Positions 23,960-64,000 of a DNA stretch of 64,000 nt are shown piece after piece (position 1 is the stretch's first letter; every line of letters starts with the position of its first letter). A program made the position numbers and the translations under genes. The notes beneath the pieces were generated by a model. It was not told the origin of the DNA. It was given only the letters and a program-made list of their open reading frames with translations, and did not search any database. This DNA is from Tetragenococcus osmophilus (lineage in GTDB: Bacteria > Bacillota > Bacilli > Lactobacillales > Enterococcaceae), in assembly GCF_003795125.1 (NCBI RefSeq), contig NZ_CP027783.1:558001-622000 (forward strand), given 5' to 3'.

Positions 23960-24233
23960 TTTTTGAATAATAAAATTCGTTATCCAATTTTTTTGTTATT
24001 GATTAAAAGATCTTGTTTCCTTTAGTCATTTTTTCATTATTGATTAACGAATTCTCGTTTCTTTATTCAATATCATCGATTTTCCAAATTATCTTCCTAA
24101 TTTTGTTCCCTTTAGCTTATTATTGATCAACGAATTCCAGATTCTTTATCCAATTTCTCATTATTGATTAAAAGTTTTCGTTTTCTTTAGTCATTTTTTC
24201 GTTATTGATTAACGAATTCTCGTTTATCTCTGG
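23960..24233. repeat. AT-rich degenerate tandem repeats
   Basis: Units of roughly 40-45 bases built round TTATTGATTAA(C/A)G recur about five times. Two copies of CTTTAGTCATTTTTTC plus ATTATTGATTAACGAATTCT (near 24022 and 24193) are almost identical over about 40 bases. The block fills the 358-bp gap between the small basic ORF and the NERD gene. No ORF or clear promoter was seen in it. Confidence 0.6.
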
Positions 24234-25281: not shown

Positions 25282-27102
25282 ATCGAGTAGGGCGAAATCA
25301 ATCGCCCTCTCACGTCACCTGGACATACGGTTCCGTATCCGGCGACTCCATTATGAATATATGTTATGTCTATATTGGTAGTAATCTAAACAACTGACTA
25401 GGCCTGCTTGGCCTAGTTTTTGTTTAGTTATTGCCCTTCTTACACAGGTTTTGGTAGCTACCCACTGGTAGTGGTTTCCTGCGTACGATGTTAGTTTAGC
25501 TAAGCTCTTATTTACACCTAACTTTTGTAATCCCCATTGTCTCTTGGAGGGAACCTTCCACATCTTCCAGACGATGGTTCGCAATCGCGTTCTTAAATGG
25601 GCGTCGATCCGTTCCATCTTGGCTTTCATGGACGAGCTGGAAAAGTAATTTATCCATCCGCGGATGACTTCATTTAACTTTTCCAGCCTCTTTCTAAAGT
25701 TTATTGACCATTTTCTTTGAGTTAACATTTTGAGTTTTTTCTCGAATTTTCGGACAGAGTCCTCATGAGGTCGGCTCATCCAGCTTTTGGCTTTAGTGTC
25801 GTAATAGAAACTAAATCCTAAATATTTTAGCTGGCTGGGCCGCGTAACCTTTGATTTGGTTCCATTAACTTTTAGCCCTAACTTATTTTCAATCCAACGA
25901 ATGACTGAATGCATCACTCGATTGGCACTTGTTCGGCTTTTAACCATGATGAGACAATCATCGGCGTATCTCACAAAGGCGAGCCCTCGGCTCTCAAGCT
26001 CTTTGTCCAGTTCATTTAGCATGATATTACTAAGAATGGGCGATAAATTCCCTCCTTGTGGGGCTCCTCGATCCGTTGGGTGGTATTCATCGGCGACCAT
26101 GACACCTGCTTTGAGATATTTTCGAATAAGCGATTCTGTGTCTCCGTCTTGGATCATACGATGTACAAGACTCATCAGCCGGTCTTGAGGAACGTTATCA
26201 AAGAATTTTTCTAGATCTATATCAACGATCCATTGATAACCTTCATTGATCGTCTTCAATAATTGATTGACGGCCATTTCACAATTTCTGTTCGGACGAA
26301 ATCCATAGCTAAATTCCGAAAAGTGGGATTCGCATATGGGTGTTATAACCTGAACAATGGCCTGCTGAATCACGCGGTCTATTGTTGTAGGTATACCGAG
26401 TTTTCGTTTCCCACCATCTGACTTTGGGATCCCAACTCTCTTTACAGGTTGGGGCTTGTAGTGTCGCTCTCTTATTTGTTGACAGATCGTTGCCCAGTTG
26501 TCTTGAATATAGGCATGAAGCTCGTCGAGCGTGACTTCGTCAACGCCGCTGGCTCCTTTATTTGCCCGGACTTTTTTATAAGCCTCATTCATATTTTGCC
26601 GGTCAAGGATACGTTCTAACATCTTCGACATAATGTGCGCGACTCCTTTCCGCTTTTAAGTATTCGTCTTAGATTGGCGTAGCTACCGACTCATTTACGT
26701 TTTGTCTACCACTACTATCAGACAGTACTTAAAACATACATTTTGTGTTGCACTATTCCATGGTTCAGTCCTTCGGAAACATGGTTTCCTACTATGACAT
26801 CTGCTGACTTCTCACTATTCGTTGTTACTACTAAATCGTTAGTGAGACCTCACGGGATAAGTGTTATCTCTTTCCTCGTTTACCCATAAGGTTTACGCCA
26901 CAAGATTACGGTTACCTTTTGGACTTTATCGCCTTTAGCCGACTTATCCGCTCGTAGCGCCTTCCTACCTTATTCCTGTTCGTTGGGCCACGATTTCGCT
27001 ATTGCTTCCTCTCTCCCGTGCCTCACAGCACGAAACTTGCAAGTCGCTTTGGGATTCGTTGGTAACGACGCTCCACAGAGACTTTCACTCTAGACATAAC
27101 AC
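25282..27102 (-). mobile_element. Group II intron with encoded reverse transcriptase
   Basis: The RNA-encoding parts surround the RT gene. Domain V is visible at about 25310-25345 as a stem GTCGCCGGATACG with a GAAC loop and CGTATGTCCAGGTGAC. Domain VI follows as GAGAGGGCG...CGCCCTACTC ending CGAT at 25282. The 5' end is placed at GTGTTATG (27102), which only partly fits the GUGYG consensus, so this edge may be off by some bases. About 470 bases of the 5' RNA (domains I-III) precede the RT gene. The intron lies 15 bases past the T run of the glsB-like terminator on the same strand. Confidence 0.85.
25351..26631 (-). CDS. ltrA: Group II intron reverse transcriptase/maturase
   Basis: A 426-residue intron-encoded protein. 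RT blocks are clear: RANKGASGVDEVTLDELHAY, GIPKSDGGKRKLGIPTTIDR, SYGFRPNRNCEMAV, IVDIDLEKFFDNV, APQGGNLSPILSNIMLNELD and the catalytic FVRYADDCLIMV. A maturase (X) domain follows with GWINYFSS. The protein ends YQYRHNIYS with no HNH endonuclease, which is usual for several bacterial classes that target single-stranded or terminator DNA. It is intact and probably supports splicing. Confidence 0.92.
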   Translation of the reverse strand: MSKMLERILDRQNMNEAYKKVRANKGASGVDEVTLDELHAYIQDNWATICQQIRERHYKPQPVKRVGIPKSDGGKRKLGIPTTIDRVIQQAIVQVITPICESHFSEFSYGFRPNRNCEMAVNQLLKTINEGYQWIVDIDLEKFFDNVPQDRLMSLVHRMIQDGDTESLIRKYLKAGVMVADEYHPTDRGAPQGGNLSPILSNIMLNELDKELESRGLAFVRYADDCLIMVKSRTSANRVMHSVIRWIENKLGLKVNGTKSKVTRPSQLKYLGFSFYYDTKAKSWMSRPHEDSVRKFEKKLKMLTQRKWSINFRKRLEKLNEVIRGWINYFSSSSMKAKMERIDAHLRTRLRTIVWKMWKVPSKRQWGLQKLGVNKSLAKLTSYAGNHYQWVATKTCVRRAITKQKLGQAGLVSCLDYYQYRHNIYS

Positions 27103-38464: not shown

Positions 38465-38549
38465 TAAGCACAGTAAAATGACAAAACAATGTGGTTAATT
38501 CTAATTAAGCACGCTAGTTCATCAATCTAGTGGGGTTGTTCGCAAATAA
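38465..38549. repeat. 85-bp direct repeat, copy 1
   Basis: Starts TAAGCACAGTAAAAT and ends GCAAATAA; it matches the second copy at 38620 with 8 mismatches by eye, about 90 percent identity. It contains TTAATTCTAATTAAGCAC and ATCTAGTGGGGTTGTT. No coding potential is apparent. It lies in the 550-bp gap between betaine copy 4 and the aldo/keto reductase gene. Confidence 0.7.
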
Positions 38550-38619
38550 TCCCGGTAAAATACTAATGCTCTGTGCTTAATTTAAGAAAAAAGAAGAAAA
38601 AAGGAACTATTAGCCACTT

Positions 38620-38704
38620 TAAGCACAGTAAAATAGCAAAACAGTGAGGTTAATTCTAATTAAGCACATTAGTTTATCAATCTAGTGGGGTTGTTCACAA
38701 ATAA
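38620..38704. repeat. 85-bp direct repeat, copy 2
   Basis: Second copy of the repeat at 38465. Seventy bases separate the copies, and a short inverted piece (CTCTGTGCTTAATTTAAG, about 38569) between them resembles part of the unit in the other direction. The rest of the gap 38266-38764 shows no gene. Confidence 0.7.
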
Positions 38705-38765
38705 GCTCATTAGAATCAAAAAGCTGTGGGGTTAAACACGCATAATAAGTATTCGCTGGCCAAAT

Positions 38766-38816: not shown

Positions 38817-39665
38817 TTATATAAATTCTTCATATTCATTAGGATTTTGACCTTCGACGCGGCCTTTTTCACCTTGGTCTAATGCATCGATTTTTTCTAA
38901 GTCTTCTTGAGCTAATTCAAAATCTAGATAATGAAAATTATCATATTGATGTTTTTTCCCAGCTGATCTTACTACTGGAAAAACGTGATCCTGATTGTTC
39001 CAGTTAAGAATAATTTGCGCAGGACTACGATCGTATTTTTCAGCAATTTCTTTAATCGTATTATTGGTTAACGTATCATTGATTTCACGACCAAAAGGAC
39101 TCCAGGCTTCAGATATGATACCACGTTTGTCATTTTCTGCTATTAATTCTTTATTATTAAAATAAGGGTGGCGTTCAATTTGGTTAGTTGCTGGAGTCAC
39201 GCCTGTTGCTTCAATAATGTTATCCAAATGTTCAGGTAAAAAGTTAGAAACGCCGATCGTCTTAATTAAGCCATATTTTTGCGCATCCACCAATGCTTGC
39301 CAAGCTTCGACATACAAACCTTCTTTAGGATTGGGCCAATGGATCAAGTATTTATCAAAATAATCTAAACCTGTGCGATAAAGCGTTTCTTGAATAAGAT
39401 CGATCGCTTTATCATATTGATGTGCTAAGCCAGGGAGCTTGTCGCTTACATAAAGTTGTTCTCTAGGAATAGAAGAACGTCGAACAGCTTCGCCGACCAT
39501 GCCTTCATTATTATAGCCTGTGGCGGTATCAAGAACGCGATAACCCACATCAAGGGCGGAATGGACTTGGTGGATACCTTTGCCACCTTGAATATGGACC
39601 GTTCCTAATCCAACATGGGGTAAAGTTGTACCGTCGTTTAAATAAAATTTATCATACAATGTCAT
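38817..39665 (-). CDS. Aldo/keto reductase (AKR5-like), copy 1
   Basis: A 282-residue NADPH-dependent reductase with the AKR barrel. The catalytic tetrad is visible: Asp in VLDTATGYNNEG, the Tyr in the same motif, Lys in VSDKLPG and His in LIHWPNPKEG. IGVSNFLPEHL and VFPVVRSAGKKH (cofactor site) follow. It reduces aldehydes or ketones; 2,5-diketo-gluconate reductase-like naming is common but the substrate is unknown. GAGGAGG lies before ATG 39665. The next gene upstream is a close paralogue of equal length, a tandem duplication. Confidence 0.88.
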   Translation of the reverse strand: MTLYDKFYLNDGTTLPHVGLGTVHIQGGKGIHQVHSALDVGYRVLDTATGYNNEGMVGEAVRRSSIPREQLYVSDKLPGLAHQYDKAIDLIQETLYRTGLDYFDKYLIHWPNPKEGLYVEAWQALVDAQKYGLIKTIGVSNFLPEHLDNIIEATGVTPATNQIERHPYFNNKELIAENDKRGIISEAWSPFGREINDTLTNNTIKEIAEKYDRSPAQIILNWNNQDHVFPVVRSAGKKHQYDNFHYLDFELAQEDLEKIDALDQGEKGRVEGQNPNEYEEFI

Positions 39666-39691
39666 GATTATCCTCCTCATAAATCCAATGA

Positions 39692-39729: not shown

Positions 39730-40578
39730 TTATACAAATTCTTCGTATTCGTTTGGATCTTGTCCTTCGACGCGGCCTTGTTCGCCTTTATCTAAGGAAT
39801 CAATTTTATCCAAATCTTCTTGAGCTAGTTCAAAGTCCATATAATGGAAATTGTCCGATTGATGTTTAGGATTAGCTGAGCGAACCACTGGAAATACATG
39901 ATTTTGATTATCCCAGTTAATAATCACTTGTGCAGGACTACGACCGTATTTTTTAGCAATTTCTTTGATAGTGTCATTAGTCAACACATCGTTGATTTCG
40001 CGACCAAATGGACTCCAGGCTTCAGAAACAATGCCACGTTTATCGTTTTCTGCGACTAAATCTTTGTTATTAAAGTAAGGATGACGTTCAATTTGGTTGG
40101 TTGCTGGCGTTACGCCTGTTGCTTCAATAATGTTATCTAAATGTTCAGGTAAGAAATTGGAAACTCCGATTGTCTTGATCAATCCATATTTTTGTGCATC
40201 TACGAGGGCTTGCCAAGCTTCAACGTACAAGCCTTCTTTAGGGTTAGGCCAGTGAATTAGGAATTTATCAAAATATTCTAGACCTGTGCGATATAGCGAT
40301 TCTTGAATAAGAGCGATCGCTTTATCATATTTGTGTGCTAACCCAGGGAGTTTTGCACTCACATAGAGTTGCTCTCTAGGAATTGATGAACGACGAACAA
40401 CTTCGCCTATCATGCCTTCGTTATTGTAATTGGTTGCTGTATCAAGAACACGATAACCAATATCAAGTGCAGCGAGGGTTTGATGAACGCCTTTTCCACC
40501 TTGAAGATCGATGGTTCCCAATCCGATATGTGGTAAAGGTGTTCCATCATTCAAAAGAAATTCGTTATATAATGTCAT
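39730..40578 (-). CDS. Aldo/keto reductase (AKR5-like), copy 2
   Basis: A 282-residue paralogue of the preceding enzyme, more than 80 percent identical by eye. Tetrad motifs are VLDTATNYNNEG, VSAKLPG and LIHWPNPKEG; the C-terminus is YEEFV instead of YEEFI. Each copy has its own ribosome site and a terminator lies between them, so they can be expressed separately. Such enzymes often detoxify reactive carbonyls. The substrate is not known. Confidence 0.88.
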   Translation of the reverse strand: MTLYNEFLLNDGTPLPHIGLGTIDLQGGKGVHQTLAALDIGYRVLDTATNYNNEGMIGEVVRRSSIPREQLYVSAKLPGLAHKYDKAIALIQESLYRTGLEYFDKFLIHWPNPKEGLYVEAWQALVDAQKYGLIKTIGVSNFLPEHLDNIIEATGVTPATNQIERHPYFNNKDLVAENDKRGIVSEAWSPFGREINDVLTNDTIKEIAKKYGRSPAQVIINWDNQNHVFPVVRSANPKHQSDNFHYMDFELAQEDLDKIDSLDKGEQGRVEGQDPNEYEEFV

Positions 40579-41900: not shown

Positions 41901-42431
41901 TTAACGAACCGTAGCTAAATAATTTTTCAATCGTTTCAATGGTAACGCCCGACCAACGACATAGTTTAAAATGGATTGGATTGGAAACATGATGAGCGCT
42001 TTTATTAGTCGCGGACCCCAAATGACTACACTTGTGAGAGGTTGATTATACATAATCGCTAACCATATCGGTGTCAAAATCAAGCTGATAATTATTGTCA
42101 GTGATAAAGAACAAAGAATGGCATTTTTCCAGCTGACTTCTTTTTTATAAAAGAAATATCCATAAATTAAGCCCCCGATAAAAGCATTTAGCGTAAATCC
42201 GGGAAAAAAAGCTGATCTGGCAAAAAGCATCATACCGATTGCATCTGCAGCTACAGCACCAACTCCAGTCCAGACAGGACCAAATAGTGCTCCCATAATA
42301 ATCTTTGGAACAAAATCAAAAGAAATTTTGATAAATTGTGTTTCAAAGCCAAAAATACGCGACAATACCACGGTAAGTGCAATTAATAACCCCAACATGG
42401 TAATCATGTGTGCGTTGATTTTTTTATTCAT
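41901..42431 (-). CDS. folT: Folate-specific ECF transporter S component
   Basis: A 176-residue membrane protein with about six hydrophobic segments. The N-terminus NAHMITMLGLLIALTVVLSR and the FGFETQFIKISFDFVPKIIM segment are typical of FolT-like S components, which bind folate and pair with the shared EcfT/EcfA module encoded elsewhere. The tetrahydrofolate riboswitch upstream strongly supports folate as the ligand. ATG 42431 follows AAAGGAG by 9 bases. It is a single-gene unit with its own terminator. Confidence 0.9.
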   Translation of the reverse strand: MNKKINAHMITMLGLLIALTVVLSRIFGFETQFIKISFDFVPKIIMGALFGPVWTGVGAVAADAIGMMLFARSAFFPGFTLNAFIGGLIYGYFFYKKEVSWKNAILCSLSLTIIISLILTPIWLAIMYNQPLTSVVIWGPRLIKALIMFPIQSILNYVVGRALPLKRLKNYLATVR

Positions 42432-42487
42432 GACTAGCATCTCCTTTTTGCGACACGAAACTGCCGCCTAGAGCTGCTACATTTAAA

Positions 42488-42588
42488 ATGCAGCGAATGC
42501 GAAAACAAAACCACGGACAACTGTCCTTCGTCCAAAAGGCAACATCCCATCCTTTCGGCACTTGACGCTTTGTTTTCTACTCTGATTT
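42488..42588 (-). ncRNA. Tetrahydrofolate (THF-I) riboswitch upstream of folT
   Basis: The minus strand reads GAGTAGAAAAC, then GCGTCAAGTGCC, GGATGGGATGTTGCC, GGACGAAGG and a closing TTTTCGCATTCGCT. These match, in order, the conserved blocks of the THF-I aptamer (GAGUAG, GCGUUAAGUG, GGAUGGGAUG, ACGAA, GCAUUCGCU). It lies about 60 bases before the folT start. A downstream hairpin GCTGC...GCAGC overlaps the 3' edge of the aptamer and precedes the ribosome site, so translational or mixed control is likely. High folate should switch folT off. Confidence 0.85.
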
Positions 42589-42689: not shown

Positions 42690-43065
42690 TTTTCAGAACA
42701 TAGGTCCGCCTGAGTTATGTCCTGAATTCAGTTTCAGGACATAGATCCGCCTGAGTTATGTCCTGAATTCAGTTTCAGGACATAGATCCGCCTGAGTTAT
42801 GTCCTGAGTTCAGTTTCAGGACATAGATCCACTTGAGTTATGTCCTGAGTTCAGTTTCAGGACATAGATTCGCCTGAGTTATGTCCTGAGTTCAGTTTCA
42901 GGACATAGATCCGCCTGAGTTATGTCCTGAGTTCAGTTTCAGGACATAGATTCGCCTGAGTTATGTCCTGAGTTCAGTTTCAGGACATAGATCCACTTGA
43001 GTTATGTCCTGAGTTCAGTTTCAGGACATAGGTCTGCTTGAGTTATGTCCTGAATTGTAATTCAG
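42690..43065. repeat. 41-bp tandem repeat array, each unit a perfect hairpin
   Basis: Eight complete 41-base units start at 42715, 42756, 42797, 42838, 42879, 42920, 42961 and 43002, with partial units at both ends. Each carries TATGTCCTGA...TCAGGACATA, an inverted repeat of 10-11 bp with a 6-8 base centre (gaattcagtt or gagttcagtt). A 13-base spacer like GATCCGCCTGAGT follows. Spacers vary only by a few bases (ATCCGCC, ATCCACT, ATTCGCC, GTCTGCT). It begins right after the isoaspartyl dipeptidase stop codon. Unit length is not a multiple of three, so it is not coding. Confidence 0.92.
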
Positions 43066-43072
43066 TAAAATC

Positions 43073-44254
43073 TTAACTTTTTTCAAATGTTCCCCATTTG
43101 ACTGCTTGGCTATTTTCAACCATGGTTTCTCCTTTGGCAATGACACGGTTAATCGATAAGTCATTTTCGTCAAGTAGAACTAAGTCGGCGTCAAATCCTG
43201 GCTTCAAATGTCCTTTATGCGGAAACTTCAACGCCTTGGCGGGCGCGCTGGTAATCGCACGCAAAGCGATCTCTAAAGGAATCTCTTCTTTTTGCACACT
43301 TTCTTTTACACCGACTAAAAGCGATTGTGAGCTTCCGACACCCATTTGGACAAAATGATTATTTTCATCAAAAACCGGCAAACTCCCTTGTCCATCAGAG
43401 CTCATCGTGAGGCAATCTGGGTCTAAATCTTCAGCAATCACTTGTTTTAAACATTGACGAAAAGGGATCGAACCGTCCAGTTCGTAGGTTTGGTCTGGCT
43501 TCTCACTTCCTGTCACATCAAAAACACCGCCCATTTTGGCAAAAGCCAGCGCTTCGTCCAATAATTCTTGGTTTCTTTCACAATGAGTAGGATAAAAATG
43601 ACTAATCGGAATATCGGTCTCTTCTAAAGCTTGTCGAATAAAGGAAAGACGTGCTTTACCTGAGCCTACATGAATATTGGTCACACCGGCTTTACCTGCC
43701 AACAGCCCGCCTACGCGAGCATCTGCTACTGCATGGGTAAATTCGGCAAGAGTTGGCGCGCCATTGCGATGATCGGCGATGGCGATTTCTCCAATGCCAA
43801 TCACTTTATCAATCGCCATTATGTCTTTCATGACAGAATCTGTAATAGTTTGGACAGGCAAGCGATAACTCCCTACATACATATACGTACTTATTCCTTC
43901 TGTTTCCAAACCGCGCGCTTTACTTAACAACGCCATATCATCTCGTCCAATACTATCTGTTCCTAATACACCAACAACTGTCGTAACACCAGCTGTTGTT
44001 AGCTGGCTTAATTGCACTTCGGGCGTGCGATTGTGAAAGCCATTTTCCCCACCACCACCTAATAGATGAAAGTGGCTATCAATAAAGCCGGGTACCGCGA
44101 TTTTCCCATGTCCATCCATTTCTTCCATATCAACACCCGTGATTGAAACGTCCAAGTGATCTTCAATAGCAATAATTTTATCATTAATAAGTAAAATATC
44201 TTTAATCCCTTGATATTCCGGAGCATAAGTTGGAATTTGTCTAATAACTTTCAT
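43073..44254 (-). CDS. iadA: Isoaspartyl dipeptidase (beta-aspartyl peptidase)
   Basis: A 393-residue amidohydrolase. Metal and active-site motifs are GFIDSHFHLLGGGGENGF (H-x-H), the loop GTDSIGR, GIGEIAIADHRNGAPT, NIHVGSGKARLS, SHFYPTHCERN and LTMSSDGQGSLP (final Asp). It cleaves isoAsp dipeptides that arise from damaged proteins. The gene follows a YfcC-type carrier by 12 bases, a common pairing that suggests uptake of a peptide or amino acid linked to its breakdown. The ATG has GGAG before it. Confidence 0.9.
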   Translation of the reverse strand: MKVIRQIPTYAPEYQGIKDILLINDKIIAIEDHLDVSITGVDMEEMDGHGKIAVPGFIDSHFHLLGGGGENGFHNRTPEVQLSQLTTAGVTTVVGVLGTDSIGRDDMALLSKARGLETEGISTYMYVGSYRLPVQTITDSVMKDIMAIDKVIGIGEIAIADHRNGAPTLAEFTHAVADARVGGLLAGKAGVTNIHVGSGKARLSFIRQALEETDIPISHFYPTHCERNQELLDEALAFAKMGGVFDVTGSEKPDQTYELDGSIPFRQCLKQVIAEDLDPDCLTMSSDGQGSLPVFDENNHFVQMGVGSSQSLLVGVKESVQKEEIPLEIALRAITSAPAKALKFPHKGHLKPGFDADLVLLDENDLSINRVIAKGETMVENSQAVKWGTFEKS

Positions 44255-63712: not shown

Positions 63713-64000
63713 CTCTGGGGCTATAAGCCCCCAATACTAGCCAGCGTCTCAAGGCGCTGGCTTTCACTTTGTTCAAGCCACACTGGTTTTGTCTCTTTTG
63801 CTACCTCTCAAGAGGTGTTTTTATCACTCTCTAACCCTTAAAAGGGTCTGCATATTCTCGAACACTTAGTTTATCTAAGGCCATATCATGTTTTTCTTGC
63901 TCTTGAATATATTTCTTGATGGTTGCCTCATTAAGACCCACTGTGCTCACATAATAACCTTCTGCCCAAAAATGACGATTCCCAAATTTGTACTTCAAAT
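63710..64000 (-). mobile_element. IS200/IS605-family element, one end (partial)
   Basis: A tnpA gene runs off the right edge on the minus strand. Between its stop and the PHP operon lie several small hairpins: GGGGCT...AGCCCC (about 63716), CCAGCG...CGCTGG (about 63741), ACCTCT...AGAGGT (about 63803) and ACCCTT...AAGGGT (about 63834). Such hairpins are recognised by Y1 transposases at IS ends. The exact end could not be placed. Confidence 0.65.
63831..64000 (-). CDS. tnpA: IS200/IS605 Y1-type transposase TnpA (C-terminal part)
   Basis: The last 55 or so codons are visible: KYKFGNRHFWAEGYYVSTVG, then LNEATIKKYIQEQEKHD. GYYVSTVG holds the nucleophile Tyr of the HUH/Y1 transposase, and the preceding region matches IS200/IS605 TnpA. 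The visible part has no defect. The HUH motif lies beyond the window edge. Confidence 0.88.
   Translation of the reverse strand, partial: LKYKFGNRHFWAEGYYVSTVGLNEATIKKYIQEQEKHDMALDKLSVREYADPFKG

Follow-up and report, generated by a model that had tools for sequence, protein, structure and literature searches.

A chromosomal array of palindromic 41-bp units in Tetragenococcus, possibly belonging to a genus-wide set of protein-binding half-sites

Introduction

The described systems that come closest to the repeat analyzed here are BOX elements and sopC-type arrays; neither of these, nor loxP, is established as its family. BOX elements of Streptococcus pneumoniae, with the layout boxA-boxB(n)-boxC, are characterized in the excerpted account of PMC3049150 as small, interspersed and intergenic, present in many copies and now dormant. 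Going by that account, the Tetragenococcus arrays resemble them in being dispersed, intergenic and composite, with a middle module that varies in tandem number, as it does between orthologous loci here. They differ in that no common end module akin to boxA or boxC was seen by eye in 28 loci, in that their module is pseudo-palindromic, has a fixed 41-bp period and has arms that do not covary, and in that no array of 28 lies between divergent genes and different sequences share one period within the genus. As to the stable RNA structure typical of BOX, the array studied here folds strongly, yet it has no covariation and avoids additional pairing.

According to the part of PMC9178275 that describes it, the sopC (parS) centromere of plasmid F is built of 43-bp repeats, twelve in all, and in each of them a ParB dimer binds a 16-bp inverted repeat. 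Both systems have, as far as that description goes, tandem units that span about four helical turns and contain an inverted repeat; the Tetragenococcus arrays differ in being chromosomal, in occupying at least 28 loci, and in having an inverted repeat of 28 rather than 16 bp. Moreover, no linked parAB was noticed, the neighbors of the 28 loci being ordinary genes by eye. A further comparison is loxP, for which the excerpted text of PMC6486577 gives an asymmetric 8-bp core flanked by two 13-bp half-sites. The likeness to this partial description, inverted half-sites of 13–14 bp and an asymmetric 8-bp core, is one of geometry and asymmetry only, and the Tetragenococcus units differ in forming tandem arrays, in having their own core in most units outside homogenized arrays, and in extending the asymmetry across a 5-bp spacer. 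REP sequences and BIMEs, with RAYT, are intergenic palindromic units that occur in clusters. The Tetragenococcus arrays are likewise clustered, intergenic and palindromic; they differ in that the half-site consensus lacks strand asymmetry and in that the Y1 transposase match does not track the distribution of the motif. Among the titles and abstract openings listed from the open-licence literature on Tetragenococcus, or on tandem palindromes, none describes such arrays.

Results

The window, that is, the whole 64,000-nucleotide stretch of Tetragenococcus osmophilus DNA analyzed here, is part of a 2.33-Mb contig in a 2.38-Mb genome. Between positions 42716 and 43030, all eight units were exact matches to TATGTCCTGA-N8-TCAGGACATA, with both 10-bp arms intact, an 8-bp loop, a 13-bp spacer, and a step of 41 bp in every case. 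Tandem Repeats Finder (TRF) delimited the array at 42691–43053 (period 41, 8.9 copies, 95% matches). The spacers ran in the order GATCCGCC, GATCCGCC, GATCCACT, GATTCGCC, GATCCGCC, GATTCGCC, GATCCACT, GGTCTGCT. On the minus strand the amidohydrolase gene is followed by the array, the tetrahydrofolate (THF) riboswitch and the ECF S component, with the array edge at most 8 bp from the amidohydrolase stop. An Rfam search of the window returned no family on the array itself.

Table 1. Positions of the arrays and other features discussed, in window coordinates
Feature	Position	Strand	Basis or remark
Third period-41 array, more decayed, yet another sequence	23976..24225	.	Dyad p=0.003
Group II intron domains D1-D4	26768-27032	-	
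Second period-41 array, other palindrome (~TTAAGCAC / GTGGGGTT halves, by eye), A-rich centre	38465..38735	.	Dyad p<=0.001
Adjacent, very similar ORFs	38817-39680 and 39730-40578		Apparent tandem duplication; first is an aldo/keto reductase
ECF transporter S component, FolT-like as judged by the riboswitch	41901..42440	-	PF12822
THF riboswitch	42489..42586	-	Rfam RF01831, 87.9 bits; downstream of the array in transcription direction
Window array, eight full 41-bp units and partial units at both ends	42690..43065	.	Pattern match, TRF
Lone right half-site TCAGAACATA at left edge of the window array	42693..42702	.	
Eight exact TATGTCCTGA-N8-TCAGGACATA units	Starts 42716, 42757, 42798, 42839, 42880, 42921, 42962, 43003	.	
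Ninth unit, degenerate: 4 changes in its right half, none in its left	43044..43071	.	
Amidohydrolase gene (iadA in the earlier note; profile search gives the family only)	43073..44254	-	Array begins right past the stop
Part of a Y1 transposase gene (IS200-sized)	63897-64000		Runs outside the window; only Y1 match in the genome

These results bear out the observation in an earlier note on this DNA, which had described eight palindromic units in strict 41-base register, interleaved spacer variants, and a position between the iadA stop and a folT riboswitch. Its view that the array is not CRISPR also held, in that the 8-bp loops and 5-bp spacers are common to units in homogenized arrays and the phage and plasmid collections gave no match to the window array; we likewise rejected a CRISPR array as a candidate. 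Further, we agree that the array is noncoding. None of the 28 loci mapped in the genome overlaps an ORF of at least 70 aa.

An array of the same units stands at the same place in a separate assembly of Tetragenococcus muriaticus, and thus an assembly artefact is an unlikely source, although that array contains Ns. The block-wise expansion of copies proposed in the earlier note is borne out. The unit variants and their order differ between the two genomes; copy number is not comparable at this locus owing to the gap of Ns. Given the near-identical units, the block duplications, and the different order in T. muriaticus (whose assembled array is interrupted by Ns), the window array is a young, recently expanded and homogenized array.

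Genome-wide, the pair TATGTCCTGA/TCAGGACATA with a loop of 0–30 bases occurred exactly 33 times, and allowing up to 3 mismatches with an 8-base loop yielded 123 units; the reversed pattern had no match anywhere in the genome, so that chance is excluded. Among the matches listed we mapped at least 28 loci, each with between one and nine units, and a 29th was found later at C1:2298790; the stretches around arrays that were covered amount to about a tenth of the genome. Steps between neighboring units (up to 4 mismatches, n=93) were 41 bp in 74 cases, 83 bp in 17, and 114 and 124 bp once each. A common layout consisted of two to three units, then a unit with a 42-bp step, one side of which is degenerate and T-rich in some cases, then two to three more units, in either orientation. 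Such a centre was absent from the window array, L051 and L060, in which the units are nearly identical. Outside arrays, half-sites were at the level of chance (7 of the 25 matches, vs. 6 for the reversed pattern). The half-site consensus in this lineage is about RABYTATGTNCTGA, with most of its information in TATGT-CTGA and an A at -3.

In the scans beyond this genome, matches fell within the genus. A scan of 84,980 species with one genome each, from which the window's own genome was perhaps left out, recovered an exact unit plus the start of the next one only in T. muriaticus DSM 15685. Within a sample of 41 genomes (our own, eight others of the genus, and 32 others), three had the motif with at most one mismatch, all Tetragenococcus. 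A covariance model matched 138 times on both strands of G002 (about 69 units) and 28 to 36 times in G008 (about 14 to 18 units, more diverged), with a few matches in G003, G006 and G007; G001, G004 and G005 had none at E 0.01.

Regarding gene context, divergent genes flank 0 of the 28 loci, compared to 29 of 140 array-free gaps of at least 40 bp in the same stretches (p=0.005; the control gaps rest on mechanical gene calls). Before correction the count was 1/28 (p=0.03), the neighbor at L091 being, by eye, a minus-strand gene of CoA-binding-like type. Between convergent genes there were 8/28 loci and 21/140 gaps (p=0.10). Up to two neighbors on each side of the 28 loci appeared by eye to be ordinary, housekeeping-like genes. 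With dnaA at C1:934650, array positions had no clear pattern relative to it (29 loci, Rayleigh p about 0.06). Two candidate readings were rejected here: polarity of the cores with replication, because agreement with the replichore (not formally counted) vanished once dnaA was placed, and canonical parS, for which one-mismatch sites occur near dnaA at 883028, 898322 and 951012 and have no sequence relationship to the arrays.

The two arms of the unit vary independently. Among 110 distinct units, no arm position paired above the level of right-arm shuffles, and position -1 paired less (45 vs. 55.7); in 98 units, 85.1% of cells were paired vs. 85.0% after shuffling, with covariation of 0.113 vs. 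0.114. Left and right arms have the identical consensus, and hence there is no strand asymmetry. As RNA, the window array folds far better than its shuffles (z=-10.4), which is what any near-perfect palindrome gives and still counts against a protein-binding reading, while the second window array folds only slightly better (z=-2.2). No terminator-like site was present inside the window array.

Pairing beyond the arms was avoided on both sides. Across the 5-bp spacer, the facing dinucleotides were mirror-identical in 3 of 73 cases (deduplicated by array) vs. 14.9 expected, with 0 of 5000 shuffles as low. Inside the loop, the pairs 1-8, 2-7 and 3-6 were complementary in 51, 16 and 22 of 102 distinct units (62.8, 40.7 and 34.2 expected). 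At loop position 2, the 92 distinct loops divided into 15 A/A, 36 A/non, 36 non/A and 5 non/non (p=1.5e-8), such that A was on one side only in 72 of them; with one unit per array (28 arrays) the median p was 0.0015. The depletion of non/non loops goes beyond what avoidance of pairing alone explains. The outer dinucleotides within a unit were not avoided (21/92 identical vs. 18.6 expected). Arrays of T. muriaticus at non-orthologous positions followed the same loop rule (17 loops, p=0.005), and their spacers were identical in 0 of 14 cases (2.2 expected, p=0.08) and closed by G:C in none (2.5 expected, p=0.008). A third species, G008, had no significant avoidance in 26 loops (p=0.29) or in its spacers (6/27 vs. 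6.3 expected).

We then compared arrays with those of T. muriaticus at ten loci with orthologous flanks, for which the T. muriaticus pieces had been picked because they carried arrays. Rates were counted at eight of the ten, L038/L101 and L058/L102 having been dropped beforehand as the whole array was different. At these eight, substitutions numbered 12/708 in the 10-mers, 10/284 in the outer four bases, 17/280 in the loops and 14/176 in the spacers, and the 10-mers changed more slowly than loops and spacers together (12/708 vs. 31/456, p=1e-5). Including the two dropped loci raised these four counts, in the same order, to 26/891, 37/354, 55/360 and 31/221. Because L034 and L059 had no unit changes and L052 one, these three carry little weight. 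An eleventh pair outside the aligned set, C1:135569 and L141, had the same units in both genomes, and unit number differed at orthologous loci, for example five vs. three at C1:1469891. Exchange among copies could contribute to the low rate in the half-sites. Array flanks were 85% to 99% identical to those of T. muriaticus depending on the locus, a spread resembling that of genomes made mosaic by recent exchange.

The window holds two further period-41 arrays of different sequence (Table 1). In the second, each of six units joins, by eye, a TTAAGCAC-like and a GTGGGGTT-like half; for several hundred bases there is no difference from T. muriaticus, and divergence begins abruptly beyond the array, which suggests recent exchange. 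For G001 and G006, sampled at 200 kb apiece and with TRF rows kept at a score of at least 110 and a period of at least 25, a period of 41–42 bp accounted for 5/7 rows (two of them one array) and 7/12 rows, respectively, vs. a single row of seven (period 42) in other genera (36 stretches, 720 kb, 26 genomes). A 41-bp repeat was also present in 20 kb of G004 (L200), outside the set tested for dyad symmetry. That test, a permutation of symmetry that keeps the columns, with p<0.05 as a pass, was passed by 6/6 TCCTGA arrays, by 9/14 arrays of other sequence (2/2 extras of the window, 2/4 in G001, 5/7 in G006, 0/1 in G008), and by 0/7 arrays from other genera. Failures were the first array of L145, L149, L154 (p=0.065), the first of L161, and that of G008, for which the limits were badly set. 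The homogenized 41-bp array at L145 4582-4858 (G001), with CCACCAATA / TATTGGAGG halves, had a dyad p of 0.21, perhaps on account of its unlike halves.

Three of the 20 stretches from G001 and G006 (L146, L158, L162) had been picked for known positions. The remaining 17, totaling 340 kb, contained eight arrays of period 41–42 outside long ORFs, of which five were dyad-symmetric at p<0.05; in two of the eight there is overlap with an ORF, 89 or 95 aa long, and one further array lies inside a 226-aa ORF. Eight such arrays vs. none in other genera has a probability of 1.1e-4 under equal density; counting the one period-42 repeat found in those genera, which is not symmetric, would weaken this somewhat. 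By eye, dialect-like sequences were ACTTATGTCCTGA, ACTTATGTGCTTA in L155, CTTATGTTGTAT in L162 and TTATGTTCTAT at locus A of G001; L154, L156 and the second window array had no such likeness, and unlike halves were seen in the second window array, L155 and L145.

The comparison across the genus covered two loci. At locus A (C1:2090715 in our genome), the array is full in our genome, eroded in T. muriaticus, and present in their own dialects in G001 and G008; by eye there is none in G003, G004, G005 and G006, that is, in four of the seven other genus genomes compared, so the sites are not essential at this locus. At locus B (C1:2100768), TCCTGA units in our genome correspond to quite different palindromic arrays in G001 and G008 and to almost nothing in T. 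muriaticus. The slot at locus B, at L137 ~430-640 (G008) and L128 ~330-470 (G001), holds, by eye, CCCTAG/CTAGGG at about 40 bp and ATGTCCCACCA/TGGTGGGACAT at about 41 bp, respectively.

Discussion

We put the probability at roughly one half that the window array is one locus of a genus-wide intergenic set of double-stranded half-sites for a putative protein. A search for the unit throughout the genome and genus, already suggested in the earlier note, returned at least 28 loci in this genome along with genus-wide 41–42 bp arrays of other sequence. Recognition of double-stranded DNA is the simplest account of these arrays, given independent arms, slowly changing half-sites, avoidance of additional pairing, a fixed period, and a changing sequence. 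Half-site orientation alternates, with gaps of 8 and 5 bp, and the resulting 41-bp unit is about four helical turns long, which would place successive bound dimers on the same face of the DNA; a putative sequence-specific protein may bind cooperatively along each array. As a matter of arithmetic, the steps of 41, 83, 114 and 124 bp equal 4, 8, 11 and 12 turns of 10.25–10.4 bp, the last two being single cases. An architectural or insulating role would be likelier than promoter control, since array positions are behind genes rather than between divergent promoters; unit number would shift by tandem duplication and loss. The protein, its cooperativity, the helical phasing and the cellular role are what we infer from these patterns. 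The avoidance of perfect palindromes could, on the other hand, be explained by DNA instability with no protein required, and the cause of the pattern lies between the instability of long perfect palindromes and a protein complex that requires unlike halves.

The absence of covariation, the slower half-sites and the avoided complementarity argue against the stem being a selected hairpin. The unit had been called a near-perfect hairpin, and its arms are indeed exact; yet the conserved part is a 10-bp half-site with a looser RABY outside it, and the flanks avoid pairing. Similarly, among the roles listed in the earlier note, a protein-binding array and a minisatellite stay among the options considered here, while a multi-hairpin transcription block or protection of the mRNA end was not supported: the arms lack covariation, the array holds no terminator-like site, and further pairing is avoided to either side of the arms. 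We regard a device acting at the RNA level, whether a multi-hairpin terminator, an attenuator or 3′ protection of the mRNA, as very unlikely; the strong fold of the window array and its position right after a gene speak for it, and the weak fold of the second window array, the missing Rfam family, and the avoidance of pairing past the 10-bp arms speak against it. A neutral minisatellite, in which slippage driven by the palindromes alone makes the tandem copies, would fit arrays that vary, from one sister genome to the other, in the number or order of their units. It would leave the 41–42 bp period shared by unrelated sequences across the genus, the conservation of half-sites in place, and the heterotypic loop rule without explanation, and we consider it improbable.

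A somewhat better, though still low, chance goes to BOX-like or MITE-like nonautonomous repeats that were spread by a past transposase, are now decaying, and include a tandem-expanding module. Under this reading the original element would be represented by arrays whose centre is degenerate and T- or A-rich, and arrays lacking such a centre, like the one in the window, would be expansions of a fragment. The dispersed, intergenic and composite layout, the 83-bp centre step (17/93), the T. muriaticus arrays that are eroded or nearly gone at both loci compared, and the 8/28 convergent positions (vs. 21/140, p=0.10) are in its favor, BOX being over-represented between convergent genes in the excerpted text of PMC3049150. 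The same text has BOX slightly over-represented between divergent genes, where we found 0/28 loci; in addition, neither a clean empty site nor a target duplication was seen by eye at two compared loci, and half-sites that are conserved in place relative to loops are unexpected for dead elements. Isolated exact half-sites did not exceed chance, so no IS end carries the exact motif, and an IS ending in the half-site was rejected as a candidate. The lone Y1 transposase match is IS200-sized, its 3.4-kb locus contains no such unit, and it occurs also in species without, or with only stray, motif matches; a RAYT/Y1 transposase, present in 7/9 genus genomes including such species, was accordingly rejected as the driver. 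Finally, sites of a tyrosine recombinase, with inverted half-sites of 13–14 bp and an asymmetric 8-bp core, at which recombination between equal cores would precisely gain or lose whole units, seem to us a shade less probable even than the RNA-level device. The 14-8-14 geometry, the unlike position-2 ends in 72 of 92 distinct loops, and the gain and loss of whole units accord with them, but avoidance also holds over the 5-bp spacer, which is no core, and loops are unlike in most units outside homogenized arrays, leaving most unable to recombine. An integrase-like ORF, recognized by eye only, adjoins one array at C1:1545305.

Returning to double-stranded half-sites for a putative protein, we tentatively consider, as a possibility well short of an even chance, that the arrays may belong to a chromosome-organizing system specific to Tetragenococcus, with dozens of intergenic arrays in each genome, of fixed 41–42 bp period, whose sequence is replaced between species, and with fast-evolving proteins that would need two unlike half-sites per unit. 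If the heterotypic rule is true, each unit would be polar despite its palindromic look. Taken together, absent covariation, avoided outer pairing and unlike halves provide a general way, applicable to any repeat family, of telling protein-binding palindromes apart from selected hairpins. If the arrays are real as read here, Tetragenococcus, a genus of salt-loving food bacteria, keeps the geometry of a repeat and changes its sequence, which is not obviously expected of RNA hairpins or selfish repeats and would be expected of centromere-like or architectural DNA.
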